Shown here in pieces: positions 5,052 to 43,618 of a stretch of DNA of 64,000 bases; position 1 is the stretch's first letter, and each line of letters begins with the position of its first letter. The DNA is taken from NCBI GenBank assembly GCA_021234155.1, contig JAJEKV010000054.1:496001-560000 (forward strand). Reading direction: 5' to 3'. Made by a program: the position numbers and the translations under genes. The notes under the pieces were generated by a model. It was given only the letters and a program-made list of their open reading frames with translations, was not told where the DNA came from and searched no databases. Source of the DNA: Isoetes taiwanensis (Eukaryota; Streptophyta; Lycopodiopsida; Isoetales; Isoetaceae).

Positions 5052-5323
5052 CTATTTTATGTTTTCGTGATACTTCAAGAGAGGGACTCTTGCCCTCCTG
5101 TTCTTTTGTTGGATCTCCTCCTGCAGAGAGGAAATCCTGGACTCCAAAGCCACAATAGTTTCTGCTTTAGTGTCATTGAGATGGTCTAACTTAGGCTGTA
5201 ACCGATTCTCCAAAGGGTCGTTCAGGTTTTCTAACTTAGCTTCCAACCTGCCCTCCATGGCTTTAAGCCAAGCCGGAATCTGCTCAGAAGAATCCGATGC
5301 ATGCTTCTTCCTAAGCTTTGTAA
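5052..5323 (-). pseudogene. 3' part of coiled-coil ORF split by element A
   Basis: This minus-strand frame encodes a charged, helical segment with heptad-like runs (for example LEAKLENLNDPLENRL and LESRISSLQEEI), ending at a TAG. It looks like part of a coiled coil. When element A and one copy of its TSD are removed, the frame joins without a shift to the minus-strand frame at 44502-44616, giving 129 open codons including the stop. The protein is not recognised; it could be a host gene exon or part of another element's gag. I infer that A inserted into a coding sequence. Confidence 0.55.
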
Positions 5324-6408
5324 TGTGACGTTCCACGTATTTATACGGTATACGTACAAATATACTGACACGTCACACAACAGAGAGACGCTACCATGGG
5401 GTATTTTAACCTAGGGGGTTGACCTAAAAGGGATTAATTTAGAATAAAGGGTTAATTAAAGGTTGATTACCTATAATTAAGGAAGTATTATTTAATTAAC
5501 TCAATTGAGTTAATTAAGTTAGGATAATTGATTAATTAGCTACTTGGCCAAATTCGATGGGCCAGTAGGAGGATTCTAACTTGGGGCATCAAATTGGATC
5601 CCTATCCCATTTGGACCCCAAATCGAACCAAGAGTAGGAGCTGCTGAGTGCGCAAGTTGCTTGTGGAGATGCCACATGATAATGGATCTAGCAGAAATTC
5701 GGGTTAGTGGATAGACTAGTTTGATATCTCTAGGGCTAGTGCTTCAGTCAGTCTTCTCTGGTTGTCTTTGTCTAGGATTAACCCTTCTTTGATACGTAGG
5801 ATTATGTTTCAATTATGGATTATGCTTTGTGATGTATGGATGGATGAATCTATGGTTGTATCTTTGTTAGCCCTCCGTAAAGCAGGGTTTAAAGGGGGGT
5901 AGAGACCTCTGTACCTTATGTTCTTAGTATGCTCCTAGTAGTTCCCCTAGTACCCAGTACTTGCGGCCTGTGCACAAGAGACCGGATGCTATGGAATTGC
6001 TCAGCACCCGAGAAGGGACGCAGTGGTGAAGTGGGGGTGGGGTCTTGCACGAACATAAAAGGCTCCTAAGACTCCTACAGTGGGCTAGGCCTGATAGTCG
6101 GTCACGTAGAGGGCCGGGTATGGGTCTGACACTCCCTGGGTGCAGTGGTGTGACCCGTATGGGGCATCCCGTACTTTGATGATAAAGTTAGGGGAGTAGG
6201 TCGGATACGGATGCGGGGGTCGCTGATGCGGCACGTATTCTCTAGCTCACCCATGGAACCCCTGCGAACCTGGAAGGGGACACTTCTCCGACCTGCCTCA
6301 TCGGACCAGGGAGATGTAATCTGGAGTAGACTCGAAGGGTGGTACCTTGAGTCTGCGTATCCGGAAGGCTATAGTGATCCCATAGCATGATTCGACTCAT
6401 CTGCAAAA
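5324..6408 (+). repeat. Element A 5' LTR, part 1
   Basis: Starts TGTGACG directly after the TSD TGTAA. It aligns with 31225-31906 and then 43619 onward of the 3' LTR, with few differences. It is interrupted after CTCATCTGCAAAA by element F. Confidence 0.93.
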
Positions 6409-6993
6409 ACAATGTTTAAAATGAAACGCACTTATTTAAGAAGTGCGTTTGAAAGATTCCTTCTGAAAATTTACAAAATTTTAAAATCCCCCTAAAAAGG
6501 ATCCTTTTATTATCTTTAGTCCAAATATTTACAAAACGGCTCATGAAAACAGACATTTTAGGAAGGTTTAACGTTATGGAGGAAACCAAAAAAAAAAAAT
6601 ATCACATTTTGGAGGGGAAAAGAACTGCTACGAAAGCCAAAGATTTATTATGGGGCAAATTCATATGAAAAAAATAAATGCTTTTGTACCTTGTCCCTGA
6701 AATTTTTTTTGTTGGCAGTTATAGAAGAAAAAAAATTCTTATTTTACAACCGCTTTGGCTAAACGTCTTAGTTGACCTTAAAACACATCCAGAGCCAATT
6801 GAACAAACTGCTTGAATGACAAACCATTGTTTTTGCATCACATAGTATTACAGACGCCAATACATCCACAATATTTCACAATTAGCTGAAGTTTCAGTTG
6901 AGGATGTCGTATAAAATTTACACCGAGGAAGCAAAAGTTGAAGTAATGAAGGTTTGTGCTTCCATGCCCTTCGTTGTTGTTCTCGAAGATGTA

Positions 6994-7230
6994 TTAGTAC
7001 ACGTCTCTAGGCTTGCACAAACCAATCCGCAACGTGGTGATGCTCAGAAGATAGTCATCCTCCTTGTCAATGTTGAGCATCTTCATCGCAATTTTGTCAT
7101 ATGTAGCAGTGGGTGTCACTGCACATTTCTTTACTAGCAAAGTGTTTATCTGTCTTGCCCTTTCCTGTCTGTTTGCAAATGAATAGGTAAACTTCTGAGG
7201 GGTTGCTACTCGTCGCACCCCTTTAGACAA
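6994..7230 (-). other. Possible captured coding fragment in element F
   Basis: A 78-codon minus-strand frame has a protein-like composition (for example CAVTPTATYDKIAMKMLNID). A plus-strand frame overlaps it. I recognise neither. It may be a piece of a host gene carried inside F, but a chance frame cannot be excluded. Confidence 0.25.
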
Positions 7231-7599
7231 ATCATGTGCTTTCCTTCTTAGAACTTTCGTGTCTCCGTAACATTTTGGGGTTCTTTTTGGGGTTTCTTGC
7301 TTTTAGTAGCAACTTTTAAGCTGTTAAAGTGAAGTTAGCATGTGTGTAGAGTAAAAAAAGTAAAAATAACAACACGATTTGACTAATTTATGGTCTAATA
7401 TTGCATTACAAGCTCAGAAATTTTAGAATCGATTTAGAACTTTTTGAACTAAAAAACTAATATTAATGTATAAAATTATCCCTTAAGTGTGTTATTTCAT
7501 CAATATTAAGTTGCAAAACCTTTGGGGGGCAAGAATGACTCCACAAGGACACGGTATATATTATATATGTATATATATATATTTTATATATATAAAATT

Positions 7600-8205
7600 C
7601 CATTAAGATTCCCTTAGATTCTCAAAACTTTTCAGAAGATTCCCCTAGATTCCCAAAGATTCTATTAAGATTCTCCTAGATTTCTAAAGGTTTTCTTGGA
7701 TTCTTAATGTTCTACAAAGATTCCTCTAGATTCTTAAGATACTATAGAGACTCCCCTAGATTTTATTAAGATTCCCAAAGATTCTCTAAAGATTCCCCTA
7801 GATTCCAAAAAAATACCCTAAGATTCCTCTAGATTCTCCAAGATTCTATCAAGATTCTCCTAGATTATATAAGATTCTCCTAGATTCTTTTAGATTCTTC
7901 GAGATTTCATTAAAATTCCCATAGATTCTTAAAGATTTTATGAAGATTCCTTTAGATTCTCCTAGATTCCCAAAGATTCATTTGAGACTCCCTAAGATTC
8001 TATAAAGATTCCCTTAGATTCTAAAAGAATACCCCAAGATTCTATCAAGATTCTTCTAGATTCTCTAAGATTCCATTAAGATTCCTTTAGGTTCTTAAAG
8101 ATTTTATCAAGATTCTCCTAGATTCCCAAAGAAGTGCTTGAGATTCCTATAGATTCTCTTGAGATTCCTCTAGTTCCCATAGATTCTATGAAGATTCTAG
8201 TCCAC
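7600..8205. repeat. Degenerate AGATTC-rich tandem array
   Basis: About 600 bp in which AGATTC or GATTC recurs every 8-25 bases in blocks such as AGATTCTCCTAGATTC and CCCAAAGATTCTA. The copies are diverged and the spacing varies, like an old minisatellite inside element F. Confidence 0.8.
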
Positions 8206-8851
8206 TAATAAATGCTTTGCCCACCTCACTACTTTTTTTTATTAATGAGGGTGCCACCTCACATCTTTAAAAAAAAAAACTAATTTAATATTAAAAAGTT
8301 AATGGCTAGGATTTATACTCACCTTTTGATCTAACGGTTAGAATCTGCTACACCAAATTCACTTTTTGGCACCTTCCTTGCACCTTCCCTATAAAAATCA
8401 AGGGCTAGGATTTCGCCTTCCCCTTTGATCCTACGGTTCACAGATGGGGTGTATGCCCCCATGCATGACTCATGCATGCCCCCATCAAAATCCAAGGGCT
8501 TAAGCTACGCCACCTCACCAACTTTTTATCCAAGGGCCAAGATCAAAACTTTATATGTAATGTGCTATTTTATGACCACCCCCATGAGTTTCTATATACA
8601 TATTAAGATAGTATATATATATTAATGTTTTTACCGGGACCTGATCCGACAAAATTTTTTCACTAACTTGGTTGCCCCAGGGAAGCCAGCGAGGGTTTCG
8701 CGTTCGTACCTGTAAAAAAAAATGGTATAAATTTACACCGCTAGAACTCTTACCGTATAAATTTATACGGCAAGAGTTGACTTTTTGATTTTTGTTATAT
8801 ACTATATATATACTATATATATACTATATATACATAAAAAATATATAAATC

Positions 8852-9015
8852 CGGTATAAATTTATACCGAGAGAACTCTCGCGGTATAAGTTTATACCGA
8901 GAGAGCTCTCGCGGTATAAGTTTATACCGAGAGAGCTCTCGCGGTATAAATTTATACCGAGAGAGCGGTATAAATATATACCGTTTGAGTCCTCTTGCGG
9001 TATAAATTTATACCG
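8852..9015. repeat. 30-bp palindromic tandem repeat
   Basis: The unit alternates two palindromes: GGTATAAATTTATACC (or GGTATAAGTTTATACC) and GAGAGAGCTCTC. About five units are present, of which the central ones are exactly 30 bp and nearly identical. Read through, one frame gives a 10-residue peptide repeat, but this is a by-product of the DNA repeat. The sequence could form a set of hairpins or cruciforms. Confidence 0.9.
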
Positions 9016-9620
9016 TTGAACTATCTGGCGTACTATGTCCACACATTACTATCTATTGTGGTATGAATGTATACCACCTAGAAATTTGTTTGGAAGAAAC
9101 TATGGACTACAAAAAATAAATACATTATAAATTTTGAAAAAGTCAAGGTTATACAGAAGTCTCGGTATACAGAAGTCTATAGCGAGCCGACAGAGCAAAT
9201 AAGAGCATGTATATAAGGCAAGAGTGAGCTTCAGTGAGACAATGTCAAAATATGTTGAATTTTTTACAATTTTGTTCATAATCCTGTAATGATTTTAAAA
9301 ACTTTAAATATAATACCTTTTTGGCACTCTAGTAGACTTGTTGTTTTTTTTCAATGTCTATTTTTTTTTAGTCCTTGAAAATGTTACTATTTCTCAAAGC
9401 AAACTAGGGGGCCAAAAAAGGGTATCAAATTTTTTTTAATGGAAGCTGAGTTCAAATCCCCCCTCAAAAATGGTGCCTAAAATATTCAAATTGTCACACA
9501 TGTCACAACTATACCGAGAAAATGGACCCTTTTTGGGGAATTTTAGGGAATCTTTTAAAGATTCCTTTTGAAGTGCGTTTGGAGCAAATTAGTGCGTTTC
9601 ATTTTAAACTTTGTTCAAAG

Positions 9621-10075
9621 TGTGTACAGGAGGGGCGGAAGGAGTGGACAACCCTAGCCGATATTCTATGCCAGCCAACGCCATGTCAAGATTCTGTCTA
9701 TTGATCTCCTGAGACCCAGCCGTCAGTCGATCCCCATTGGAGTCTGAGCCGGGGTAGAACCTTGGGTTTGGGGTGTTTTCTCTAGTATTAAAGGTATCTT
9801 CTCTGTGATCATCAGTGGATGGATGTGCCACCCTTCGTGGTGGTAATTTATTATATGATTATGTTGTATGCTAACTTGTATTCACGCTTCCGCAACATAG
9901 GAGTCCCATCGAAGGCGTGGGCCGAATGACACCTCCGTATCCTTCACCGGGCATCTTTTCATAGATGGTCCGAGTTAGACGGAGGGCCCTGCTCATGGCG
10001 AGTTGGTTGCCGTGGGAGGGGAAAGTCCCCGTATGTATACGTCCAGAGCACCGTATATGTTCAAGGAACGTCACA
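9621..10075 (+). repeat. Element A 5' LTR, part 2
   Basis: Resumes the LTR after element F at GTGTACAGGAGG and ends GGAACGTCACA, the inverted match of the LTR start. It aligns with about 44035-44496. Confidence 0.93.
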
Positions 10076-10076
10076 G

Positions 10077-10092
10077 TGGTAACAGAGCTGTG
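10077..10092 (+). promoter_or_regulatory. Element A primer-binding site
   Basis: One base after the LTR end comes TGGTAACAGAGCTGTG. It resembles the plant initiator-methionine tRNA primer site TGGTATCAGAGC, with one mismatch in the first 12 positions. It primes minus-strand DNA synthesis. Confidence 0.85.
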
Positions 10093-10692: not shown

Positions 10693-12069
10693 ATGATGGA
10701 GGAACACAAGCAAGTATACAAGCGGATGCCTCGCTATTCTAGATGCTCCATAGCTTCCCTAATGGCCGAACGTTTGCCACACCCAAACCCATCGGCCGAA
10801 GAGGAGGCAAAGGCCGAAGGGTTATTAGAACATTTTGCTAAGCGTTTTTTTGAAGGGGCTAAGATACCATACCCGCTCTTCTGCTACAATGAGCGCTTTG
10901 TCTTTAAACTTAACGCCAACCAGGAGTCTTACACCGTAATTGAGGAGGAAGATGGCGTCCAGAATTATACACGGTTCTGTCCATCGGAAGGGGATGAGCA
11001 GGCTAAAGCGGAGGCCATACAGATGCAGGCCCATAAGATCCTACAAATGGCACAAGAGGCTGACCGGCAATGGCTTGCAACCGATGACCCTGCTGCGCAA
11101 GCTCTAGGGTACCGCTATCTTGGTAATGGGATGTGTCTCTTTGGTGGTGGATCATTTACCATTCCATCTTTTTCTTATGAGGAGGAAAATAATCGTATTA
11201 TTTGGGAAGCCGGGTCACCCCCATATTTCACCGATCAGTTCCAGCGAGCTATTGAGCAGGATATGCAGGCAAATCCCCCACGGTATTTTCTGGAGCTTAA
11301 ACGAAGAACAGATGTTCGGATAGCCCTGGAAAAGCGAGCAGATGAGAAGGCAACACTCCAGGCACAATCACAGAGGGCAACTCACTTGGCAGAGGAGGCT
11401 GCCAAACTTTATGAAGATACCCTCCGTGCACGGCAAGTGGAACAGGAGCAAGCTCGGAAAAGAATGCAAGATGACGCGGAGCGGATAGCAAGAGAAGCAA
11501 CCGAGACAGTTAAAGAACGGCTTAGGAAAGAAGAAGAAGAACGCAACAGGTTGGATAAACACAACTTGCCACCTCCGAGTAATCCTCCGATTCGCAGAAA
11601 GCGGAAGAGTACGGCCCGCAAGTCGGGTGCTCAGTACAGGGATCAACTCAAGACTCGGGGTGGGGTCACTAAAGCTGCGGGGGATAATCAGCGGGATGAA
11701 ACGATACGAAGGGCGCGGCATCCAAAAACCGCGGGGAAAACTATTCCCGGAGCTCCCCCGCAACCTAAGAGGAGGCACCGTTACAAACCAGGCACGGTGG
11801 CACTGAGAGAGATACGGAAGTATCAGAAGTCCACTGGCTTTCTGCTACGCAAACTTCCGTTCCAACGCCTGGTCCGGGAAATAGCCCAAGAATATAAGAC
11901 GGATCTGCGGTTCCAGGTACACGCAGTCCTGGCACTTTAGGAGGCGGCCGAAGCTTATTTGGTGGCCCTCTTTGGGGACGCCAATTTGTGTGCTATTCAT
12001 GCTAAATGGGTCACCATAATGGTGAAAGATCTTCAGTTAGCACGCCGGATTCGCGGGGAACGGCCTTGA
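10693..12069 (+). CDS. ORF with C-terminal histone H3 domain (amber-interrupted)
   Basis: From the ATG at 10693 (an ATGATGGAG context; the frame is also open upstream) this frame runs 458 codons to the TGA at 12067-12069, with one in-frame TAG at codon 416. Residues 1-220 are a globular region I do not recognise. About 220-290 is a charged coiled coil rich in Ala, Glu, Arg and Lys. A Pro/Lys/Arg linker follows, and from about 301 a histone H3 tail and fold to the end. The TAG replaces the Gln of the conserved ALQEAAEAY helix, so CAG to TAG is the likely cause. The ORF sits between primer site and gag on the element's sense strand, so I take it as element-encoded. The product may package element DNA or bind chromatin; that is inference. 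A host pseudogene captured by this copy alone is the alternative. Confidence 0.85.
11593..12066 (+). other. Histone H3 domain
   Basis: The core from 11779 carries the diagnostic H3 stretches [61 protein letters not shown] and [11 protein letters not shown] in order, with no gap against canonical H3. Changes from the canonical sequence include [12 protein letters not shown] for IHAKRVTIMPKD and a terminal Pro. The tail keeps KSTARKS, matching the K4-K9 region (TARKS around K9), and a QL like Q19-L20. It lacks the K14 and K27 contexts and has about 20 extra residues before the core. Because it is fused to about 300 residues, its tail is internal rather than a free N-terminus. Confidence 0.95.
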
Positions 12070-12388: not shown

Positions 12389-13239
12389 ATGCCGGACGTC
12401 TTGCCTGGTATATGGGAGGCGAGGTGGGATCCTCAGGTTCCCTATCCTCTTCTAGACCCCATGCTGCAGTGCAGGGTCGATCTTGTCGATAATATGCGGG
12501 CACACCCTCATTATAATGAGTTCCTCGAGTTCTATAACGAGGAAATCTTACCGCAGGCGGAACTCTTGGGCGAGCCGCCTCAGCCCTATCTCCATAGGAA
12601 CATCTTATGGCAAATGTTTGGGGATGATCACCATGGCGATGCCATACTCAGAGGCATTGTTCGACGTGCCAAGCATGGCCCCATTCTTGACTTTGGGTCT
12701 AATCAAGTTTATTTTGAAGCTCAGTTTGCTCTTGCCCTACTCATGGATAGATATATTGAAAGTAGTGACACCGCCTTGGAGCAAACCAAGGCTCCACTAC
12801 CTCAGGATCCGGAGGAGGATGAACAGATAAGCTATGCGGATTTCACCAGGTGGAAGGAGCTAGTTACAGAGAAGCCTTTATCTCGTAGTAAGGGCCAAGC
12901 GCTTATAGGATTGGGTGCACTTCCCACTATAAAGGTTGGGGATCAGGATTACTTGTTGCTTAGTGACATTCAATGGGCATACCAACATGTTGCCAATAAG
13001 GCAGGCCAAAGACGGCTCATCTTCTGTATGAGTTAGCCGAGTATTGCCAGGGGCAAGATGACTTCATGGATTACTCTAGACCTGTCTACCCGCCAGAGAT
13101 ACACCGACTGCTCAATTATCACCCTCTTGATATTGAGCCCGTCAACACTCTGTTGTCTCTACGTCAACTAATGATCCAAGATGTTCCTTCATCGGTTCCT
13201 GAATCGGCTTTCCACGATACGGCACCACATGTCCCTTAA
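12389..13239 (+). CDS. Element A extra ORF 2, unknown (one frameshift)
   Basis: The ATG at 12389 opens a frame of about 215 codons. Near 13000-13015 coding potential moves to another frame, which stays open to the TAA at 13237. The predicted protein of about 280 residues is acidic and aromatic-rich, with segments such as LEFYNEEILPQAELLGEPPQ and ELAEYCQGQDDFMDYSRPV. I recognise no domain. An ATG at 12382 in a different frame gives only 36 codons. It lies in the same orientation as the histone ORF and gag and looks like an accessory or gag-leader protein of this element. Confidence 0.6.
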
Positions 13240-14416
13240 CATCAATGATGTTACCGTCAAGATGGAAGACGACCCAACCACGGAGGATCTTTGTGATGAA
13301 GCCCAGTACGTTCAGGAGGAGAAAGATTTTGTTAAGGAAGAGGAACTGCCGCAGAACTTCGAATCTGAGTTGGCTTCCTTAACCCATCCGAGTGTCGAGG
13401 GGTTAAAATGTCATATCACCCGGTTCTTCTTGTCGGCTTTTACGAGCAGACAAGTGCTCTTCTTTGCCAAAGCAATTGCACTCGAAGCTGAGGCAGCTGT
13501 ATAGGCACTCCGAGCACTTTCTACAACAGCTGGCCATAAGAAGCTACCAATTAATCTCGAGCAGGTCATCCTCGTCAATCGTGATCTTGCCATTGCTGTA
13601 TTTGACCACGATATTGGCTCTTGGATGAACTTGAGTTTACTGGTTGCAGCGCCGTTAGCTACAAATGTTCCTCCAGAGATAGCTTCATCAGCTGCTTCAT
13701 CAATTAATCCTAATGTGTTACTTCTTCAGCACCGACCCGACCTCTTAGTTCTAGACTTTATCAGATACTTGTACTCAGTTCTATGTAATTTTGATTGGCA
13801 TTTTCTTTAATGAGCCATCACATAATATATATACTATTTTCTTATGTTCCATCGTATTGTTGAATACAATTACATTGTCTTTCTCCTACAATGCTTGTCT
13901 CTCTTCCTTAAAGTTGAAGCTCCGTTATTGTATATTCATCCTTGCCGTCTTACAGACGATGAAATGGAAGAGAATGAGGACGGAATACCCGAGGAACTGC
14001 GGGGGGAAGATCAGATACCTCTAGAACAGGACTATGGTCAGGAGTATGCCGACTGTCAGACAGGGGATCACGCTTATGAGGCAGAGGAACTTGTGGAAGA
14101 AGAAGAGCCCTACGATCCAATTAGGGGGTTAGAAGTTGTCAATATCCTCTGTGAGCGCGCCTTCGAGCATCTAGAACAAACTCTCCGTCGTACCTGGAAC
14201 TACTGGGATATGACAAAGCGCGAGGCTTTTGCCGACGCAAATGATCATCTATAGCAAATCTTCTACGCACTGAGAGATCTCTTCCATTTGCTCATCATTA
14301 GCCCTACGTTAGATTACCAGTATGTTATCATCCAGGCATGGGCTCGTTACAAATTAGTCAGGGCAGTACGGGAGAGTATTCGATACTCTATCCTGTCCCC
14401 TTTCGCGGAGCCCTAG
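13229..14416 (+). CDS. Element A extra ORF 3, unknown, possible histone-fold segment
   Basis: The ATG at 13229 overlaps the end of ORF 2. The frame continues to the TAG at 14414, with ambers at 13502 and 14252 and a stop inside a likely 171-bp intron (13785-13955). The N-terminus is acidic. At about 13400-13610 is a helical segment with the order long helix (ALEAEAAV, amber, ALRALS), a loop with HKKLPI, then LEQVILVNRDLAIAV. This resembles helix 2, loop and helix 3 of H2A, H2B or H4. The match is weak. A second acidic stretch (about 13970-14110) and a helical Arg/Trp-rich end follow. The same frame (mod 3) is used by gag from 14669, so ORF 3 and gag may be joined by splicing. Confidence 0.5.
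13785..13955 (+). other. Putative intron in extra ORF 3
   Basis: GTAATTTTG at 13785 and a pyrimidine-rich CTTGCCGTCTTACAG ending at 13955 bound an AT-rich 171-bp segment. Its length is a multiple of 3; it contains the only TAA in this frame, and its removal leaves an open frame. This is an inference from sequence alone. Confidence 0.4.
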
Positions 14417-14668
14417 GCCTGATTTTCACAGTTTTTTTCATGGCTGAGTGTGTGTTGGTTAAAATTATCCACTGTTAATCATGAATTTTGTATTGTACAG
14501 TCTCAAATTTTGTTAAAACACCCCTTCAATGTAACCGTCACTCTGGCTTCATAATAAAGCTACTTTCCTTATTTCTCTTTCATTGTCCTTATCGTTGTTT
14601 CGTGGTACTGTTCAAAATGATCTTCATTGTGACACTCTGTATACCATTACTTTCACTTATACCTTCTT
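14417..14668 (+). other. AT-rich spacer or second intron before gag
   Basis: Non-coding, T-rich sequence ending in ATCCATATAG just inside the gag ORF. The frames on each side are in register, so a second intron is possible. The donor is not clear. Confidence 0.35.
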
Positions 14669-16222
14669 ATGATCCATATAGACGGTGTACGTAATGCTTC
14701 TTGGCACACCCCCTCGGATGCTGGCAGATTGACACCCGAACAAGAGCTCTTGTTGATAAAGAGACAGTTGGTAGAACTGCAGATGTATGTGTTGAACACC
14801 AACCCTCCGCAGTATGGACCGGAGTTACCGCCACCACCGCCAAGTCCACCAACCGAGCAGCCACCTGCACTGGCCCCATCACCCGCGCCTGTGCAAAGGA
14901 AACACTGTGATAAGCGACGTAGAAGTTCTTCTAGCGAGAGTGCCACGTCTTCACATACCGACACCTCTGAATCTTCGGAATCATCCGTGTCGTCAGGTCA
15001 CCATGCTAGGAAGGACAAAGAGTACCGCAAGACCGTGGATACCGCCATTACCAGTATATGGAAAAACAGGAAATTGGCTCAGTTTGATGGGAAATCTAGA
15101 GGTGGCCTGAACGCAGAGTCTTGGTTGAATGAAATGAAGGAGTTCGGAAAATCCTATGGGATGACGGAGAAAGATACAGGAAAAGTTGCCACTACAAACC
15201 TTACAGGGGCCGCTCGTATTTGGTGGAAGGGCTATGCTAGAGCCAAGCATCTAGACAGAAGCAGATGCAAGTTTAAAAAGTTTGCCAAAGCTTTTAAGTC
15301 GCATTATGTGCCCCGTGCGCACAAATGCCAACAGATACAGACTTTTTACAGGTTGGAGCAGAAGGGTATGGCAGTTCAGGCCTACACAGATGAATTCATG
15401 TGCTTGAGGCTGTATGTTCCAGGTATGAACGAGAAGCGAGCGGTGGAGGGCTATATTGAAGGGTTGGCCCCCTCAATTAAACGAATGGTTAAGGCCATAG
15501 ACCCGAAGTCAGTCGCAGAGGCTGAGGCTAAGGCATTGAGCCTTGAAGAGGACACACCAAGAAACCAGTACCAACGCCCCACCTCTTACTCCCAGCCACG
15601 CCCGTGTACACCTTACAAGCCCCGTTCACCAAGTCCTGCACCTTCTCAGCAGAACTCTTACGGTCGCCAGGAAAAGAAAGTCACCTTCAACATGCCCAAC
15701 AAATCGAACAATGTCGGTAACTCAGTTCGGAACCTCTTACAGTCTATTCCTAAAGAGGCCCGAGAGCAGCTCCGCAAAGAGAAGGCATGTTACAGGTGTA
15801 TGCGGCCCGGGCACTTCATGCAGAATTGTCCTTATGTCACACAGACTGCCCAGCTAGCCATGGCAGACCTTGATTGGGATGATCTCGAGTCTACACCACC
15901 CGTCGACGAGGAGGCTCCCGAGTATATTCACGGTGCGTCCCATATCTTTGCAGCCATTAAAACCGGCAATGCTGAAAGTCAGCCTGCCGTTATTTCCACT
16001 ATAGGTCAAGTAGACAGTAAGCCTTTCATAATTCTTATGGATACCGGAAGTACACATAATTTTGCTTCTCCTAGAATGGCCCAGGTGTTGCAACTTGAAA
16101 CTTTGAGATCCCGACCGAAGCCTGTGACTTTAGCCAGTGGTAAGATCAGACATACAAACGGCCATCCATTAACCTCAAAATGCAGCTGCCGGGTGCACCA
16201 GTTACATTGGGTGCCGAGTTAA
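14669..16222 (+). CDS. gag: Element A gag-protease
   Basis: A 517-codon frame starting at ATG 14669. After a Pro-rich and Ser-rich leader, residues about 115-280 form a Ty3 gag (capsid) region with [26 protein letters not shown] and [13 protein letters not shown] zinc knuckle ([14 protein letters not shown]) is at residues 374-387. The aspartic protease follows, with its catalytic DTGSTHNF at about 458. The frame is lost near 16165 by one indel; the rest of the protease ([15 protein letters not shown], then DLIVGMEFL) continues in the pol frame at 16180. In an intact copy gag and pol would probably be one polyprotein. The product forms the virus-like particle and matures it. Confidence 0.93.
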
Positions 16223-19200
16223 TGGATATTGGCAAATATGATTTGATTGTTGGCATGGAATTCTTGGCATCTGCAAAAGCCAATATAGACTGCGAAACAC
16301 GGGAGGTTACCTTCAACGCAGCTAATGGAGCCCGCGTAACTATAAAAGGTGATCCATTAAACCCCATTATGCAGTCTATATCCATCAGGCAGTTAAATAA
16401 GGCTATACGCAAGAATAAGTTACTTTGCATCATTAGAATTGCCTCCATTGAGTCGGATGCCAAACAAAAGCAAGTAGTTGATGCATTGCCAGAGAATATT
16501 GCTAATCTTCTCAGGGAATTTAGTGATCTTTTTCCAGATGAGATCCAGAAGCTTCCTCCTTTCCGAGGGGTGGAATGTGAAATAGCCTTGGAGCCGGGTA
16601 CCAAGCCTACCAGTAAGGCCCCGTACCGTATGAATCCCTTTGAATTGGTAGAGCTTAAGAAGCAACTTCAGGAGTTATTAAACCTAGGCTTCACTCGGCC
16701 TAGCGTTTCGCCTTTTGGCGCTCCTATCCTTTTTGTTAAGAAGAAGGATGGCTCCTTGAGGATGTGTATTGACTATCGACAGCTCAACAAGCATACGATC
16801 AAGAATCGCTATGCTTTGCCTAGGGCAGATGATCTTATGGACCAGTTGCAAGGGGCCAAGTACTTCTCAAAGATTGACTTACGCTCCAGGTATCACCAAA
16901 TAAGAATTAAAGAGGAGGACATCCATAAGTCTGCTTTTCGCACTAGATATGGGCATTATGAGTTTACAGTTATGCCTTTTGGGTTAACTAATGCCCCCGC
17001 AACTTTTATGCGGTTAATGAATGATGTCTTCCGAGAATACTTGGATGATTTTGTTGTGATTTTCTTCGACGACATTCTCATCTATAGTAAGACTCTGGAG
17101 GAGCATGAGAAGCATCTTCGGCTAGCCCTACAGAAGCTAAGACGTCATCAGCTCTTTGCTAAGCTCTCTAAGTGCAAGTTTGCCGCTCCCAAGGTGGATT
17201 ATTTAGGCCATGTCATTTCAACTGAGGGAATTGCTACAGATCCAGCAAAAATAGAGGCAGTCAAGGATTGGCCCATTCCAGGTAATGTTTCAGAGGTCCG
17301 AAGTTTTTTAGGATTGGCAGGGTATTACCGGAAATTTGTTAAGGATTTTGCAAAGATTGCAGCACCTCTTACCGATCTTACGAAGCATGAGAAAGTGAAG
17401 GATTGGATTGAGCATTAGAAAGCAAAGGCCCAGGGAAGTTTCCAAAAGCTTAAGGATGCTTTGACCTCTACACCAGTCCTCACATTACCGGACCCGGAAA
17501 AGGATAAACTAGTAGCAACGGATGCCAGTAAGATTGCTACTGGAGGAGTTCTAATGCAAGAGGAGAGGGTTATTGCGTATGATTCTAAGAAGATGAATGA
17601 AGCTGAACAGCGATGCCCTACCCATGATCAGGAATTGTTAGCAGTTGTACGCGCTTTGCGTATATGGAGACACTACCTTCTTGGTAGGAGATTTCAGCTA
17701 GATACGGATCACCAGAGTCTCCGTTATCTCTCTACCCAGCCAAATCTCAACCTCCGTCAGAGAAGATGGATGGAGTTTCTTGAAGAGTATGATTTTGAGA
17801 TTATGTATAAGCCTGGGAAACACAATGTGGTTGCGGATGCTTTGTCACGCCATCCCTTAGTAACCCGAACCCATTGTAATGCAATTTCCACACTCACCAG
17901 TGAGTTCGGGAAACAGATAGAGCAGACATTAGTCACGGACCCAGAGTTCCGTGATGTCTGGGATAGTTTGGCCAACGAGGCACGCACAAATAAGGAACGT
18001 GAAGCTTTCTGTTCGTATAAGAAAGAGGGTAATTTGTTATATTACAAAGATAAGTTGTGTGTACCTGAGACTTCAGGAGTACGTAAGCTTATTCTCCATG
18101 ATACACACAACAGCCCTATAGCTGGACATGCAGGTTTCATGAAGACCTACCTTAAGATCCGCTCCAGTTATTTTTGGCCGTGTATGAAGGAGGACATTGC
18201 CAGGTATATTAAGCAGTGTCAGATGTGTCAGCAAACCAAGGCTGAGCAATTAAGGATTCCAGGAGAATTACAACCTCTGGATGTGCCCAATGCCAAATGG
18301 GAAGTGATAACCATGGATTTCATTGTGGGCCTTCCACGTACTCTCCGTGGATATGATGCATTGCTGGTAGTGGTCGACAAATTGTCGAAAATGGCTCATT
18401 TCTTGCCATGTCGTACCACGGATACAGCCTTCGATACCACTTTGCTGTTTACAAAGGAGATCTTCAGATTGCATGGAATGCCACGAGTTATCGTATCCGA
18501 CAGGGATCCCAAATTCGTAAGTGCATTCTGGAAAGATTTCTTTGCCACCATCCAACCCAAGCTTGCTATGAGTACGGCATATCATCCTCAGACGGATGGT
18601 CAGACAGAGCGTACCAATCGCATTATAGAGGATATGCTGCGAAGTTATGTGTGGAGTAAGCAATCACAATGGGCTGACTATATTTATTTGGTCGAGTTTG
18701 CCTATAATAGCATGAAATAGGAGTCTTCTAGAATGTCTCCCTTTATGATAAATTATAGGTATCAATGCCTTACTCCCGATACATGGCATAATCCCGTTTC
18801 TAAAGTGGAGGTTTCTCAGCAACTCCTCTTGGAAATGCAAGCTTTGGTTGAAGAAGTTCGTGACTACTTATTGGCTGCCCGCAGTCGTCAGAAGAGTGTC
18901 GCGGATAAGCACAGGACCCCACGAATATTCTAGGTGGGCGAATCAGTTTGGCTCAAGATTAAGGTTAAGCAAGCCAAGCTTAAGATTGGTAACTGCAAGA
19001 AGTTGGCACCTAGATGGGCTGGGCCGTTCAAGAGCATTGAACGTGTTGGAGAACAGGCATATCGCTTGGATTTGCCACCCCGTTTGAAGATCCACAAGGT
19101 CTTTCACGTGAGTCTTCTGAAGCAACACACCCCTGATCCGGAGGAGATGTTGGATACACCCACCCTCCTTGAAATGACAGAAGAGCATCTAGAAATCGTG

Positions 19201-19407
19201 CCTGAAGCTCTTCTTGATCGAGCCTATAAGCACACCAGAAGGACTCAAATGCTGCAATATTTGGTTAAGTGGAAACACTTGCCAGTTGAGGATGCTACAT
19301 GGGTGATGAAGATAGACCTTGATAAGCATTATCCGGACTTCATGCGGGAATCTCAGAGCCGCACCATCAACGATGTCATCAACCCCGCACCCGGCGGTAA
19401 GCTTTGA
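16180..19407 (+). CDS. pol: Element A pol: RT, RNase H, integrase, chromodomain
   Basis: One frame holds all of pol, with ambers at 17416, 18718 and 18931. [23 protein letters not shown] and the catalytic FFDDILIYS (about 17070). RNase [23 protein letters not shown] and DTDHQSL, with DALSRH at its end. Integrase: a HHCC finger ending CQMCQ, and catalytic D, D, E in [19 protein letters not shown] and [10 protein letters not shown]. Then comes a GPF-type module ([15 protein letters not shown]). The C-terminus (about 19230-19345) is a chromodomain ([16 protein letters not shown]). This order and the chromodomain define a chromovirus. Each amber sits where CAG (Gln) is plausible. Confidence 0.95.
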
Positions 19408-19755: not shown

Positions 19756-20348
19756 TGTTTGGGGTCTGGGTTCGGGAACTCCTGCAAGACAGCCCTCTGT
19801 GAGGACCCGTGGATCTAACAGGAGAATCCGGGGACTATGTCACGCGGGATTTGCAAGAAAACAAAGGAAAGGGAAAAGAAAACAAAAGAACAATGAGACA
19901 ACAATGATAAGCTTCCTTGATAATAATGATGATGATACATAAGCTCTCGCAACCGAGAGAAGACTGAAAATGAGACAAGACTCAAAACTCATCTAGAAAC
20001 TAGAGCGCTAGCTCTACTCATATATATAGTACAATAGCCTTTGGCCCAATATAGACACTCTGACTGATCTCGGTGCCGACTCCTGGAAGGAGGCCTGATT
20101 TGCAGGAATGCTGGCGGTGCCTCTTGAAAAAGCCTGAAATCCCGCTAACGCTAACGCGGGCGGTGACGAGCCGTCACTTGTCTGAGCGCCGCCTCTTGGT
20201 ACCAGACGCAGGCTTTGACTGCGTGGTCTGCTGCTTGGTCTTTTGCTGGGCTTTTGACGGCTGACCCGTGCCTGTCTGTGGATCCTTGAGCTTGACTTGG
20301 TCCGTTGTATGCATGAATAGTCCTGTACCAGGAGGCACAGGACTAACA
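19756..20348 (-). repeat. Element C 3' LTR
   Basis: Element sense runs TGTTAGTCCTGTG to GGGGTCTG-type ends, closing in CCCCAAACA. It contains a TATA-like CTATATATATG (minus strand, about 20017-20030) and, unusually, the last 58 or so codons of the extra ORF at its start. It is nearly identical to 30309-30901. Confidence 0.95.
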
Positions 20349-23300
20349 CTTCCCCCCACCAAACGACACTCAGGTTGAAGAAATGGAGGAAGTGATTCTG
20401 ATGGCGGGAATCCAGGAGTTTGAAAATGATCCTCACGGGAATGAGGGCGGGCGCCATTATGGTAAGTGCTAATGAGGTCCTGACGTGCTTGAAGAGCGTC
20501 AGGAGTGTTGAGCCCCAGGGCAAGATCTGCATCAACAAGGAAGTGAGAGCGCACCATATCTTCCAAGGTAGCATGTGCTTCTGCAGGAACGAACTGGCAC
20601 TCCATGAGAAGGCAGGTCTGGAGACCGAAGGCACTGACGCTGGCATTCGGGTTGCAGTAAAAGATTGGACACTGCCGATGTAGAGAGCTTACCAGGATGC
20701 ATTTGAGAGCAGCACAGAAGCCAGCTTGACGGTGAACCGAAGGATCTGGGGAGGTGGCTGCATTCTGTAAGAAGGTATCAAGGCCATGCAGAGCATCAGC
20801 AGGCCGTTGCCAACCACGCTCATTAGCAATGTAGATCCAATTGGTAGTTTGGTCCAAGGTGGCATCAGCTTCCCACTCAGAGCGTCGGACAAAACGGGGA
20901 TCCCACCGCAGATCTGTCGAGATCTGTGGAGGAGTCCACCCAGCGTGGCCATCCATGACCTTCGTCCAAAAGGGAAGCCGCCAGTCAGAGGTAAGAAACC
21001 GGGGGCGTGGAGGGGCTCCCAGTGAAGCATATGGAGAAGGAGCCATGCCCGTGGGTGTGGGCTGCTGAGCCTGCTCCCGGAATTCACGCACAAGGTCGGG
21101 ATCAAGAGCGTTGCACCATCTATCCCATTCAGAAGTTGAGAGCTGAGTATAAACAGGAGGACTATCCCATCCCGTGGGTACAGTCTTGCTATCCAGAAGG
21201 GCACGCAATTGATTGTAGCCTGCCAAATGCTGCATATAAACTTGAGCAAACGGAAGATCTTCAGGATGCCCAAGATTCTTTCGCACCTGTTCCAGCGCTT
21301 CGGCTTGCCAGAGAGGTAAATGATGAGCAAGCTCTGGCATGTACTCCTGATGAAGTGTGTGAGTCTGATCATGATCTGCCAGATAGGAGCTGCTATCCAA
21401 GAGCAACCATTGAACCTGTGAGTCACCCTGAAAGTTCTGATGGGGCCCGTCACGAAATTTGTCCTGGGTATCAGCTAGATAGAAGTCATGGAAGATCTAC
21501 ACCATCGGTTGGACAACTCGGAAAGTGATTAAATCAGGGTCCTCACAGTGAAGGAGGTCGAAGACCAAAAGGGCACAGAGCAAACCTTTGTCTGCTATTG
21601 AGAGGTCCAGCCAGATCCGGAAAAAATCCGCACTGCGCAGGGGAACATCAACCTTACCATCTGCGGCGTACCACTTGAAAAGAAAGTAGTGGCGTCGGGC
21701 AACCACATAATCCAGGTAACTGGAAGGAATAGGAAAATCCACAGACGTGTGGATACCAAGACTAAAATAGCCTTCCTGTTTGGTTTGGGCTTCTTCAGCA
21801 GACTGAACTGCTTGCTGGAGCTGATGTTCCAGGTCACGGATCCGGTGGTCCTTTTCTAACAGAAGACGTGACTGATCACGGACCCGTTTCGGAGGTAGCG
21901 TGGCATGCGAAGAAGATTGCCCGGGAGTCTGGAGGCGCAGCGTTGCAATCTCAGCGTCATCAACAATTTTCTGCTTCTGGGCCTCCGTAAGCTGAACCTG
22001 GAGAGATGTCAATTGAGTGGTCAGCGTGGAAAGCTGAGCTTCTAAGGAGGTGAGGCGAGCATCACGCTCGGTCAGATCATGAACTTGAGTGCGGTAAGTC
22101 CGAGAAAGCTCTGCATACAAGGTGTCGAGCTTAGCAATGTCTTTCTCCTTGTCACTCAGGAGGGTGTCCTTTGTCTTGTTCTGCTCCAACAATTCCTGAA
22201 TAGTGGTTTGTAACTGAGCCTGCTGATCAGCAAGCAGGCTGGTCCGATCTTCAGCAGTCTTGAGATCCTCACGGACCCGTAAAAAGGCCTCGTGCTTTTC
22301 TTGAAGCTGTGTCTCCAGAGTGTGCACTTGCTGGGTAGCAGCTTGAAGGTCTTGGTGAACCTTATCTGAGGCCTCCAGGGATGCTTGAACCCCTTGCATG
22401 AGAGCTTCCTGTGATTCTTGTAACTTGAGGGCAGCAGCTTGAACATCCTGCTGATATTGATACAGGAGCTGGCGAGGATGTGGAGGTGGAGGGCCCTGTG
22501 GTGGTCATGTTTGGGACGTCTGAGAGACATGATGAGAAGTGGAGGGCGTGGCTTCAAAGGAAGAAGAGGAAACAGTGACATGGGTATGGTTTTGTTGATC
22601 ATGACCAAGAGAAGTCTGGCGTGAAGGTGCAGCCTGTTGGGTTTGGCGCTGGGAATGCAAAGACTGCTGAGTGGTGGCATGAGAAGCGGAAGGGGACGCA
22701 GGAATAAAAAGATAATGATGAATAAGAGCTTGAAGATGGCCACCCACCAAAATTTCTGAGACAGAGGAGGGGTTAGCCCGAAGGCGATCTACTTCTTGGA
22801 GGAGTCTGTAAAACAATATTTGTGGCCAATCAAGAAAGTGAATGGAGCAGACGGCCGTGATAACCACATTGTAGAATGGTTTATTGATATGGGTGTTCTT
22901 GATAGAATACCCAAGGAATTTACGCCATAGAAATTTGACAAAAGTGTCATGAGGCCTTGCGATATTGGTGAGGCGATGCATGTTTGCTTGATATTGAACA
23001 GCGCCAAACTCGGTGACATCAATATCTTGTAAAGCAGCCCAAGATAAACAAGGTGTTTGCAAAGGAATATGGAATACCTCAGAAATTAGGGGCTGAGTAA
23101 GCAAGATCGTGGTGCCATCGACCACAGTAGCAAATCCTTCTGGACGATTGACGATATTAGCCACAAACTGCTTCAATTGGTCTGGATTTGGTGCCGGAAG
23201 GTCCATTTGGGAGAATTCATAAAGCTTGTGGTGTTCCGCAACTTCCCGATTTGGGCCAACAAGGGCTTCCCGAAAGGTGGGCGTCAAGAAAGACACCGAC

Positions 23301-23365
23301 TCGAAAAGAGCCGGATCCCTGGGAGTAGAAGCTTGTAGGGTCGGAAATTTGGGTGCAGGAACCAT
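20174..23365 (-). CDS. Extra ORF of element C, about 1063 residues, unknown
   Basis: From the ATG at 23365 (ACCATGG context) the frame runs to the TGA at 20174, with only two nonsense codons: TGA at 22505 and TAG at 21497. Residues 1 to about 240 are a globular region (for example DGTTILLTQPLISEVFHIP, NKPFYNVVITAV). Next is a Gln/Ser/Pro/His-rich linker, then a coiled coil of about 280 residues with regular heptads (SLEAQLSTLTTQLTSLQVQL). A large Trp/Pro-rich C-terminal domain follows, ending in TKRRRSDK, a likely nuclear localisation signal. No signal peptide or membrane segment is visible, so it is not an obvious envelope despite its position. Element D carries the same ORF. The N-terminal part may belong to the plant-transposon accessory domains seen in Athila/Tat elements; that needs an HMM search. 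Confidence 0.8.
20349..20360 (-). promoter_or_regulatory. Element C polypurine tract
   Basis: The minus strand reads GGTGGGGGGAAG immediately before the LTR, the usual place for the plus-strand primer. It lies inside the reading frame of the extra ORF. Confidence 0.85.
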
Positions 23366-23831
23366 GGTGAAGAGCGTCAGACAGGAACCGAAAGGATGAT
23401 CTTGAGAAGGCGGAGAGCGGAGAGCGGAAGACGAAAACACAGATAGACGAAAAGGAATTAGGGCGCACAAGTGTTGGCGAAGGGGCATGAGGAGGATGAA
23501 CCGGCAACCGTTGATGATGCCAGGTGGCAACAGATGCGAAGGAGGCGTTTGAGGGGCAAAATTTCGGCTAAGTCCCCAAAGGGTAAAGGGAGAAGCAATG
23601 AATGGTGAAGATGAGACGTAAGAGAATGATCAGATGTGACAGCTGGCGAAAGGACGCACATTAATGTTCGACGGGCGTGAAAAGAAGGAATGGTATTTAA
23701 TGCTGGCAACTCGAAGTGAGATATCATTAAAACGAAGGCGTCAGAAGGTACCATGGCTAGATATGCGGCGGGAGAAAAGATTCTCCATTTAGAAACAGCC
23801 TTGCATTGCGAACCCGTTGGCAAAATTTCTG

Positions 23832-23873
23832 ATTGGTCCACGTCGACAGGGAGGTCCTCGGTTGGCTATATAA
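23832..23873 (+). promoter_or_regulatory. CCAAT/TATA promoter of the antisense gene (C)
   Basis: An inverted CCAAT box (ATTGG, 23832-23836) precedes a canonical TATATAA (23867-23873). The coding ATGs follow at 23904 and 23916, about the distance expected for a transcript starting near 23898. The same two boxes are conserved in element D. The interval back to 23366 separates this gene from the divergent extra ORF and may serve both. Confidence 0.65.
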
Positions 23874-23903
23874 GACGAACATTGAGCGAAGCTGGGACAC
23901 CCG

Positions 23904-24170
23904 ATGGCGCTCAGTATGTCTGCTGCTGGATTGCACGACAAATGCACTATGCCATCTAACTGTCTGGAGTGGATTACTTGTAAAATGGACTGCCTGGACC
24001 TCTGGCGGTGCCACAATCGTGGCATTGCTATGGACGGATGGTGTGCCGGCATGGCTGAGCATGCCGATCCCCATACCAACGGGATGGAGGTAATTCTGCA
24101 CCTGCGCTGGGATCCTGAGAACAACTGGTACCACATCCTGCGTATCACCTCTGCTCCTAACCCGGAGTAG
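23904..24170 (+). CDS. Antisense small Cys-rich protein (copy in C)
   Basis: An 88-codon ORF on the strand opposite to gag-pol, lying tail-to-tail with pol and head-to-head with the extra ORF. The likely start is ATG 23904 or 23916 (the latter has A at -3). The protein has six Cys in the pattern C-x5-C-x5-C-x3-C-x5-C-x10-C (DKCTMPSNC, WITCKMDC, LWRCHN, then WC), then HADPH and a conserved end WYHILRITSAPNPE. The D copy differs mostly at third codon positions and by Leu/Arg synonymous first-position changes, which argues for selection on the protein. I do not recognise the family. Metal binding or disulfides are possible; regulation of the element or of host defence is only a guess. Confidence 0.75.
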   Translation: MALSMSAAGLHDKCTMPSNCLEWITCKMDCLDLWRCHNRGIAMDGWCAGMAEHADPHTNGMEVILHLRWDPENNWYHILRITSAPNPE

Positions 24171-24200
24171 AGGGTGTTTCTTCTTAGGACGTAGTAGATA

Positions 24201-24263
24201 GGGCTCTGAGCCCGTTTTTGTAAATAGGGCTCTGCCCATAGCGGAAATAGATGGGCTCTGCCC
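24201..24263. terminator. Three GC hairpins between convergent genes (C)
   Basis: GGGCTCTGAGCCC (24201-24213), then GGGCTCTGCCC at about 24227 and 24253, separated by T-rich spacers. They lie between the stop of the antisense gene and the stop of pol, where both transcripts should end. A similar set is found in D near 51080-51140. A role in 3' end formation is inferred. Confidence 0.5.
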
Positions 24264-24306
24264 TCATTTTGTAAAAATTCCACTTATAATATAAATATGC
24301 CGCCAG

Positions 24307-26983
24307 TTAGTCACTATCTGTGGTGTCTGTGTCTGGAACAGCATCTGTTGTATGATTGTCACTTTCTGTTGTATGAAATTGTTTGAGGCGAAAGCCATTA
24401 ACTAGTGTAGGTAATAGAGTTCCATCTAATTCAGCCAGCTTGAAAACACTGGGTTGCACCACTTGAACAATTTGATAAGGGCCAAGCCATCGAAATTTTA
24501 ACTTGCCCGGAAAGTTTTTGTAACGAGAATCATAAAGAAGAACCAAATCTCCTTCTTTGAATGTTTTTGTCTTAATACGTTTGTCATGTAAGGATTTTTG
24601 CAACTGTTGTCCATGAAGAACACGAATGTAAGCATCACGCCTAAGTTCATCCAACTGTTCCAATTGATAGACCCTTTCTTTGAGTGCAAAGAAGCGGATT
24701 ATGGGTCAGAGGTTTGAAAATGGAGAGTTGGAAGAATGTATTCAAAAGGCATGAGAGCTTCTTGACCGTAAACCAACTTGAAAGGAGTGTGACCAGTAGC
24801 TATTTTGAAACAAGTATTGTAAGCCCAAAGAACAAAGAGGGAAGCTTGTTGTGCCAATCAGGCGAGAAGGCGCCACAAATTTTCTTGAGAATTGTGACCA
24901 GAGTTTTGTTGGTGCTTTCACCAAACCGTTCCCTTGAGGATAGTAAGGTGTGCTCTTGTGATGATGTATCGAAGAGATAATCCGCCGGCTCCTTGATGGT
25001 ATGATTGATAAAATGGACACCTCTATCTATCGACCCCAGCTCCGCGGGGCTGCCAAAACGCCGATGATGATTTGCTGATAGATGACCTTGGTCGTGGCCG
25101 GGCCGCAGTTGTTGTCCGGAAGTGCGCAAGCTTCCGCCCATTTGGTAGCGAGTCGGTGAGAACCAGGAGAAATGTAGCGGCGGGTGTGCCTCCTCACGGA
25201 GGATCAATGGGTCCCACAAAATCCATCTCCCATTTGTCGACAGAAGTGGCGTGGCGGCCGGGCGTCAATGGAAGAGCCGCCACGGTGGTGGGCCTTCCCA
25301 CACGCCGACAAGCATCACACGTCGGGCGTGGGCGTGAGCGCCTTTGAAGAGCGTGGGCCAAAAATAACCCGCAAGAAGGATTTTGGCGCGTCGCGGGTGT
25401 CACCATGAAAATGACCACCACCGAGCCCTTCATGGGCTTCTCGGACAATATCCGGGACCTCATGAGGGAGAACACGCCGGCCGAAGGATCGGTATCCTTG
25501 CCCCTTTTGTAAAGATGGCCCGCAACCATGTTGTAGTCATGGACCCTCACGGAGAAATTGGTGTCGACGGGATTGACGCTGGCTGGAGAGAGCGGGCGCC
25601 CTCTAGTGGAAGAGCACCCCGTGAGGAGATACTGCTGAAAGTTGTGGAACCAATGTGGCGTGCCGTGACCGTAAAGAGTTGAGCGTCGGGAAAGGCGTCC
25701 CGAGACTCCGGTGGGAGGGATCATCCGTATGGATGCGTGAAAGATAATCCGGGACAACATGAGATTTGGCCGCCTTGTGAACAATTTCAAAGGTGCAAAT
25801 TCTTGCGAATGAGGACCCAACGAGCAATGCGCCCCGGGCGTGGACTTGTTGATTAAATAAAGGAGTGCTTGGTGGTCAACAAAGAATTTGATCTGACTGC
25901 CTAAAAGGTAGTGACGGAAGCGTTGGACACAGAAAATTAAACCCAAGGCTTCACGCTCTGTGGCAGAGTAGTTGCGCTCAGCAGGATTGAGTTTTCTGCT
26001 GGCATATCGATTTGGTTTGTCAGTGTGCGCATCATATTCTTGAGAAAGAACAGCTCCAATATAGCGAACGCTGAGACATCTACATGAACATGAAAGGGCT
26101 TGTCCCATTGAGGAGGAACAAGAACCGGTGCCTGAGTAAGCAAAAGCTTCAACTGTTGGAAAGCAGCCTCCGCATGGGAATTCCAAGCCCAGGTGGATTC
26201 ATCACCCGTGAGTTTATGAATGGGATCTGCAATGGCTGCAAGTCCAGGAATGAAGGTAGAGTAATAATTTACCTTACCCAGGAAAGAGCGTGTCTCCTTG
26301 ATATTGGCTGGTGCTTGAGCCTTGAGCACACAACTGATTTTAGCAGGATCCGTGGTGATACCTGCTTTGCTGACAACGTGTCCTAACAGAACACCTGAAG
26401 TGACGCAAAAGGTGCATTTCTCGGGATTGAGACTAATGCCGGACTCATCACATTTCTGAAAGACGAGTTCTAATTTATCCAAATGGTCAGCCATGGAACT
26501 GTAGGCAGAGAAGTCATCTTGAAAAATTTGCAAGAAGGGATTTTCCTTCATGAAATCATGAAAAACTGAGAGCATTATGCGTTGAAATGTTGAGGGAGAG
26601 TTTGATAATCCAAAAGGAACCACCTTATAGGCAAAAGTGCCCCACGGGGTGGTGAAAGTTGTCTTGAGTTGATCAGATTCTTTGATTGAGATCTGATTGT
26701 AGCCAGAAAAACCATCCATGAAGGAGTACATCTCATGTCCAGCGACCTCTTCCAGAACCTGATCTGTGAAGGGAAGTGGAAAATGATCACGCTCCGTGGC
26801 CTGATTTAGTTTCCGGTAGTCCACGCAAACGCGGATCTTTCCATTGTGTTTGAGTGCAATGACAATGGGGCTCACCCATTCAGAATGTTTGACCTCATAG
26901 ATCAAACCTGCAGCAAGGAGTTTGTCAATTTCTGCCTTGACGCGATCACGGTAATTGGGGTTGAGCCGGTACTGTCGTTGCTA
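24307..26983 (-). pseudogene. pol: Element C RT-RNase H-integrase (frameshifted)
   Basis: RT starts just after the UAG at 26981-26983: EVKHSEWVSP, RVCVDYRKLNQ, FMDGFSGYNQI, VVPFGLSNSPSTFQR and the catalytic FQDDFSAY (about 26510). RNase H is visible (LSATTLPQ and YLLGSQIKFFVDHQALLYL near 25850-25990). Integrase pieces follow to the TAA at 24307, with an acidic tail ending DTDTTDSD. Frameshifts near 26060, 25830, 25220, 24990 and 24690 break RNase H and integrase. The copy cannot make a full pol. Confidence 0.9.
26981..26983 (-). promoter_or_regulatory. In-frame UAG between protease and RT, likely readthrough site (C)
   Basis: The minus strand reads CCCGTG TAG CAACGACAG. The frame is open on both sides. 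The same stop and the same CAACGACAG context occur in B and D. UAG followed by CAA matches the CAR-type context known to promote readthrough (as in tobamovirus replicase). Confidence 0.7.
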
Positions 26984-29900: not shown

Positions 29901-30261
29901 CCTGTCCGCCCGTAGGAGATGATGGTTGTGAAGGCAGCGGTGTATGGCCAGAAGAATGATGGATGTAGGCATGGTCGGGAGTATGAAAGTAAGGTTGAGA
30001 AGGTTGAGCCTGATAGGGCTCCTGATAGTGATGAGGTGACTGAGGCTGTGAGCAATGTTTGCACGCTTGAGGCGGGGAACTGGGAGGAGACAGGACACGA
30101 GGGGTGGGTGGCGCCGACTGAGCCCTCGACCGAATGTGGCCTCCCTCAATGTCATAAGCAGATCCATACATGTCGCGAACAACTTCCCTTCGATGATGGC
30201 GCTCCAAGCGAGACGCCGTCTGGGAAAGGAGTTCTTCTGGCGTGAAGTTTCGGACAGACAT
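26984..30261 (-). CDS. gag: Element C gag-protease (one frameshift)
   Basis: ATG at 30261 (start MSVRNFTPEELLSQ). A Pro/Gln/His-rich leader of about 200 residues precedes the capsid region (MEEFEALAALNGHAQ, SARDFADRLHIL, PPAIRLMTEYLRP). Three CCHC knuckles follow: CHICKYQGHLANEC, CKRCNMCNHATEEC and CYHCHEWGHTTTAC (about 29.05, 28.98 and 28.75 kb). A linker leads to an aspartic protease with IDGGSAVNLIT (about 27.9 kb) and DYEMLVGRPFL. One indel near 28450 separates gag and protease frames. The protein ends at the UAG at 26981. Three knuckles are more than the usual one or two. Confidence 0.9.
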
Positions 30262-30286
30262 GGCGACAGAAGAAGGGAAAATAAAA

Positions 30287-30307
30287 TCAGACCCGGCATC
30301 GGCGCCA
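30287..30307 (-). promoter_or_regulatory. Element C primer-binding site
   Basis: One base inside the 5' LTR the minus strand reads TGGCGCCGATGCCGGGTCTG. This resembles the TGGCGCCG-type primer sites of plant Athila/Tat elements; I do not assign the tRNA with certainty. Confidence 0.7.
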
Positions 30308-30308
30308 G

Positions 30309-42995: not shown

Positions 42996-43009
42996 GATGG
43001 AAGAAAAAT

Positions 43010-43029: not shown

Positions 43030-43030
43030 G

Positions 43031-43613: not shown

Positions 43614-43618
43614 GCTAT

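Follow-up and report, generated by a model that had tools for sequence, protein, structure and literature searches.

A Ty3/gypsy chromovirus of Isoetes taiwanensis carries a long reading frame, ORF1, whose C-terminal third is, by its sequence, beyond doubt a histone H3. The element lies in a 64,000-nucleotide stretch of genomic DNA (hereafter the window, to which all positions refer). An earlier, sequence-only reading had described it as a chromovirus carrying an H3 fused to an N-terminal domain; this holds for the one copy examined, although the histone in that copy has a premature stop. We favour the explanation that a host H3.3 was captured and then kept as a chromatin-binding accessory protein, known from one broken copy, and we give this an even chance of being correct.

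A chromovirus with nested insertions

The element (element A) occupies positions 5324-44496, is flanked by TSDs and has three further insertions nested within it. The TSD, TGTAA, is found at 5319..5323 and as the same five bases at 44497..44501. The LTRs have TG..CA ends and are about 1.55 kb each. The 5′ LTR (5324..10075, plus strand), which runs from TGTGACGTTCC to GGAACGTCACA, is interrupted by 3.2 kb of inserted sequence (about 6409-9619), and the 3′ LTR (31225..44496, plus strand) is split by a nested LTR element, C (31907..43613). When three blocks of the 5′ LTR are compared with 31225-31887, 43614-44034 and 44034-44496, 1499 of the 1534 aligned bases are identical (97.7%, with 16 gap columns), a divergence of 2.3%, or about 1.1% per copy since insertion. 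Another nested LTR element, B (19756..30901, minus strand), sits between pol and the 3′ LTR; its own LTRs are 98.7% identical and AGCAG flanks it on both sides. Without the nested insertions the internal region of element A measures about 10.0 kb. One base past the 5′ LTR the sequence reads as a primer-binding site, TGGTAACAGAGC (10077..10088, plus strand), which we take to resemble initiator tRNA-Met primer sites, and a stretch with a terminal polypurine tract, AAAGGGAGAA (31205..31224, plus strand), stands ahead of the 3′ LTR.

Some other features of the region are worth recording. The insertion in the 5′ LTR has near-perfect terminal inverted repeats (AACAATGTTTAAAATGAA and AACAAAGTTTAAAATGAA) and internal tandem arrays, and is probably a DNA transposon; within it, at 8852-9015, is a palindromic tandem array of 5.6 copies of a 30-base unit, CGGTATAAATTTATACCGAGAGAACTCTCG. 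The leader before ORF1 holds two telomere-like 88-base copies (10254-10341 and 10373-10460) that are 81% identical and start with AAACCCTAACCCTAA. Element A is adjoined by a Ty1/copia reverse transcriptase (45807-46640, minus strand, RVT_2 E=2e-66), and the window holds Ty3/gypsy and Ty1/copia elements mixed, which, like the H3.3 type, the chromodomain and the CG/CHG pattern described below, points to a plant. Two related elements on the minus strand have a TAG at the same spot (26981 and 39697), after DARPV or DARPI and before QRQYRLNPNYRD; this common TAG might be a programmed stop. A tRNA scan of the window and an Rfam search at the gathering score returned no tRNA and no family.

Along the sense strand of element A the order is primer site, ORF1, ORF2, gag and pol. 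Pfam matches to Ty3_capsid, Retrotrans_gag, the zinc knuckle and the protease place gag and the first part of the protease at 14633..16222 (plus strand); the zinc-knuckle models score under their cut-offs, nevertheless the CX2CX4HX4C pattern is plain in the sequence. The pol frame (16144..19407, plus strand, with TAG at 17416, 18718 and 18931) has Pfam matches for the protease end, RT, RNase H, integrase and chromodomain, and the RVP_2 protease match is divided between the gag and pol frames. Gag, protease, RT, RNase H and integrase follow one another in the order of Ty3/gypsy elements, and element A combines paired TG..CA LTRs and a TSD with an integrase chromodomain, as chromoviruses do. The chromodomain, at the integrase C terminus (19198..19347, plus strand), matches PF00385 at E=9.9e-9 and Chd1 in the PDB at E=1.9e-6. 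Visual inspection suggests that it lacks the first and third aromatic cage residues.

Between ORF1 and gag is a second coding region, ORF2 (12395..14416, plus strand), of about 620 codons and in pieces. Followed by eye, its coding seems to shift frame near 13015 and again near 13237 and has TAG codons at 13502 and 14252, and splice signals suggest a possible GT..AG intron at about 13785-13955. ORF2 matched no Pfam family at cut-off, its pieces gave nothing below E=0.45 against PDB sequences, and a fold search with its single-sequence model (pLDDT 41.6) had no match at E<=0.001. The by-eye idea that 13367-13783 encodes an H2A-like histone was rejected as unsupported. Four ORF2 pieces were scored with home-made H2A, H2B, H4 and H3 profiles, ranked alongside 200 shuffles per piece, and none was among the 12 best scorers. 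ORF1, ORF2 and gag, compared with one another, show no sequence relation (the smallest E listed was 1.6).

The histone within ORF1

ORF1 (10693..12069, plus strand) consists of an N-terminal region, a helical stretch, an H3 tail, an H3 core and a TGA stop. The sequence-only reading had placed it in sense orientation, after the primer site and before gag of a TSD-flanked element, and the TG..CA LTRs with TGTAA on both sides bear this out. It had overlooked an in-frame TAG at 11938..11940 (plus strand) that cuts the H3 core, so that the frame is not open to 12069. The copy at hand therefore cannot make the full fold. The open frame is 415 codons long; when the region was shuffled 1000 times by mononucleotides, no frame exceeded 270.

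Scanned apart, the portions before and after the TAG (10693-11937 and 11941-12066) match the Pfam Histone family at E=1e-17 and E=2.2e-13, and ORF1 read through the TAG finds H3 chains in the PDB with a best E of 3.4e-49. The core is made up of the last 96 codons (residues 363-458, 11779..12066, plus strand). As had been claimed, it aligns without gaps to the canonical H3 core, with 82 of the 96 residues identical to H3.3. Between its first 16 residues and its last one, our H3.3 reference agrees with PDB 7ux9 chain E, presumably a plant H3.3. The alignment score is 429 against H3.3 and 411 against H3.1, and the H87 and L90 that we take to mark plant H3.3 are both kept. The fourteen core differences are R42K, E59G, L60F, I62L, D77E, F78Y, S86V, G102A, E105G, T107A, R116W, P121V, I124L and A135P, some of which may be later than the insertion. 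Residues that contact DNA, H4 or the second H3 (H3-H3′) are mostly kept, with S86, E105 and R116 changed; E105 and R116 are sites of yeast Sin-type mutations. The ORF1 core, ungapped against canonical H3.3, is unlike that of a CenH3, which has a longer loop 1 and a divergent core.

Ahead of the core is a degenerate H3 tail (residues 301-362, 11593..11778, plus strand). The TARKS motif that had been reported around a K9 equivalent is there, at 11611-11625, and TKAA is kept as well. The rest of the tail is only partly kept: a K27-type ARKS is absent, 20 of 39 residues are identical with four gap blocks, and 132 of 1000 shuffles match the local alignment score. The global score was reached by 265, 76 and 33 of 2000 shuffles under three gap settings, whilst the longest exact match (5 residues) was equalled by 95 of 5000 shuffles and the shared 4-mer count by 6 of 5000. 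Instead of a free N-terminal tail with K4, K9, K14, K27 and K36 there is an internal one with some 300 residues ahead of it. The tail region and the linker are basic.

Residues 1-300 matched no Pfam family at cut-off, and a protein search with residues 1-340 gave 0 of 3725 candidates at E<=0.001. Single-sequence AlphaFold2 predicts a long helix at residues 195-289 (11275..11559, plus strand), which is probably a coiled coil judging by its residues; the only high-pLDDT stretch of the model (about residues 210-290) is within this helix. With an overall pLDDT of 48 the model is too weak beyond the helix, the H3 fold is not seen in it, and a fold search with it found no match at E<=0.001. Searches of viral contigs with ORF1, the first ORF2 piece, gag, RT, the H3 part and integrase found no relatives. 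The same was true of ORF1 against prokaryotic genome contigs. Neither is a plant collection, and absence from them says little.

Age, constraint and competing explanations

In-frame stops number one in 458 codons of ORF1, three in 1057 of pol, none in 498 of gag and two in 621 of ORF2, counts that are a guide and too small to separate rates, with the frames picked by eye and frame-change zones left out. The ORF1 rate is comparable with that of pol; quite possibly, then, ORF1 was still open when the element inserted, as pol was, and decayed later with the rest of the element. The LTRs carry transitions at 14 of 227 CG and CHG sites versus 11 of 507.5 CHH sites (p=0.008, with one transition unclassed; p=0.10 for CHG alone). 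This excess fits the decay of a methylated plant element, a process that can yield TAG codons by itself.

The core is better preserved than the tail (82/96 versus 20/39, Fisher p=1e-4); host H3 tails and cores are about equally conserved. In a neutral simulation from H3.3, stopped when the core reached 82/96, the tail fell to 20/39 or below in none of 1500 runs (the lowest value was 21), and the neutral path to the observed core took about 7.4% substitutions per site. Set against the roughly 1.1% per LTR copy, this means that most of the H3 change seems older than the present insertion. From this contrast, which none of the neutral runs reproduces, and from the age of the H3 change we infer a constraint on the H3 fold in earlier transposition cycles, before the insertion. 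The open H3 frame and its stop count are by themselves no proof of selection, because the neutral runs average 1.3 stops over 135 codons and 61% of them have one or none. The contrast between core and tail could also be explained by the capture of an odd H3 variant or of a copy with a damaged tail.

Several other explanations have to be weighed against capture and retention. One is that TAG is decoded as an amino acid in the host, leaving the H3 frame intact. All six in-frame stops in the frames we followed are TAG, ORF1 and pol terminate with TGA, and the TAG closing ORF2 has a TGA two codons on. We nevertheless regard this as very improbable indeed: the protease match split over two frames and the apparent frame changes of ORF2 speak for decay (a programmed shift being possible), the CG/CHG transition excess can create TAG codons, and the frames of other elements in the window contain TGA and TAA too, although the coding status of each is not established. 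It is also quite improbable that the histone arrived privately, as a host H3 retrocopy, or a whole ORF1, inserted into this single copy of element A. In its favour, there is no intron in the H3 part, the sequence near 12200-12265 is rich in A, and the two sides of the whole ORF1 share seven 8-mers where shuffles lead us to expect 1.7. These are mostly A runs, and TTTCTTGT, at 10647 and 12163, is the 8-base pair that brackets ORF1 most closely. However, the flanks of the H3 part itself (11480-11640 and 12060-12340) share no 8-mer, the H3 divergence exceeds what the insertion age allows, and the H3 frame runs on from a 300-codon ORF. That the H3 ORF belongs to the element is supported only indirectly, by its place within boundaries marked by TSDs, the missing 8-base repeat around the H3 part, the pol-like decay and the divergence older than insertion.

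A more serious contender is that a host H3.3 transcript was gained by template switching and that the chimeric ORF spread as baggage without ever being useful, which we think possible but doubtful. Extra ORFs, varied in origin and of doubtful function, are frequent in plant LTR elements, according to parts of PMC6317226. The copy at hand is broken with a stop count compatible with neutrality, and neither the protein search nor the prokaryotic contigs gave relatives. Yet the core has been preserved better than the tail, the divergence seems mostly older than the insertion with the frame open meanwhile, and the H3 is fused to a second long open frame. Alternatively, the fusion might have its place in the particle, in capsid or cDNA packaging, where it would bind DNA or RNA as a basic protein, and none in host nucleosomes. 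An ORF upstream of gag on the same strand, with a basic tail region and linker, would suit such a role, but H3 folds stably only with H4, and a two-sequence H4 profile picked out no H4-like frame among the frames of at least 40 codons in the window (best E 2.1); we consider it unlikely. Packaging of the nucleic acid, and replacement of H3 at the integration site, had both been put forward as possible roles by the sequence-only reading.

Capture followed by retention as an accessory protein is the explanation we prefer. An ancestor of the element would have captured an intronless host H3.3 coding sequence, joined to an ORF of the element, and the lineage would have kept the H3 fold through several rounds of transposition for the advantage it gave the element. 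The H3 core would pair with host H4, so that the fusion protein could sit in host chromatin or be chaperoned to it. The N-terminal part, probably a coiled coil, may bind proteins of the element and might then anchor its particles or integration complexes there, in a role complementary to that of the integrase chromodomain. After the present insertion the copy would have decayed, leaving an ORF1 no longer able to make the whole fold. The capture itself is supported by the setting of the H3, since the TSD-flanked element around it also encodes gag, RT, RNase H, integrase and chromodomain. Weighing against an accessory protein are the single copy seen, with no relative in the viral and prokaryotic contigs or the protein search, the broken ORF of that copy, the changes at E105 and R116, and a tail that is not free.

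A bolder version, to which we assign only a slender chance, is that the chromovirus makes both a reader and a mark carrier: an H4-pairing histone of H3.3 type, with the K9 motif TARKS and without the K27 motif, alongside the integrase chromodomain. If true, the element could seed its own H3 in chromatin, which would make landing sites or act as a sink for the host silencing machinery. Against this, the chromodomain appears by eye to lack two of three cage residues, and here too the tail is not free.

Significance and known systems

Few eukaryotic proteins are as constrained as histones, and chromoviruses rely on chromatin for target choice. A lineage that keeps a captured H3 would be a natural experiment in the rewiring of host chromatin by a mobile element. 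Should other copies turn out to have an intact and constrained frame, one could test directly whether a transposon can use a nucleosome component of its own.

The term 'additional ORF' is absent from the sections consulted of PMC3605345. Plant LTR elements with extra ORFs (eORFs) include Ogre, Retand, Athila and SIRE, and such ORFs are frequent in the OTA and SIRE groups, neither of them chromoviral (PMC6317226, in part). Like ORF1, eORFs have at least 250 codons and lie in the 5′ part on the forward strand, and their sources appear to be many (same sections of PMC6317226). A histone eORF is not named in the main text of that paper, whose single use of the word 'histone' concerns H3K9. Plant chromoviruses with group II chromodomains share the Ty3/gypsy order and the integrase-end chromodomain of element A but, unlike it, have no histone ORF mentioned in the sections consulted of PMC3350952. 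Chromodomains without two of the three aromatic cage residues form a group whose partner is unknown, as portions of PMC3350952 and PMC6317226 describe. A limited literature search turned up no LTR retrotransposon with a fused H3, and we make no claim that none has been published.

Compared with H3.3 itself, with which it shares an ungapped core, the ORF1 H3 differs in its C-terminal place in a fusion, its fourteen core changes, its longer and degenerate tail, and its stop. An H3 within a mobile element already has an example, in a fungal hAT element (PMC3538342, in part). This hAT DNA transposon of Pyrenophora tritici-repentis carries an H3-like gene; the extracts of PMC3538342 that we used count 26 H3L genes for the reference genome and report ESTs. 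As in element A, the ends enclose an H3-like gene together with a mobility gene and an ORF without known function. The hAT element is, however, a fungal DNA transposon with terminal inverted repeats (same portion of PMC3538342), whereas element A is a plant-type LTR retrotransposon with its H3 fused to a long N-terminal region. Where a hAT element would have terminal inverted repeats and a hAT transposase, element A has LTRs, RT and integrase. If its H3 was kept in the lineage, element A would add an independent second case to that of the fungal H3L-carrying hAT element.
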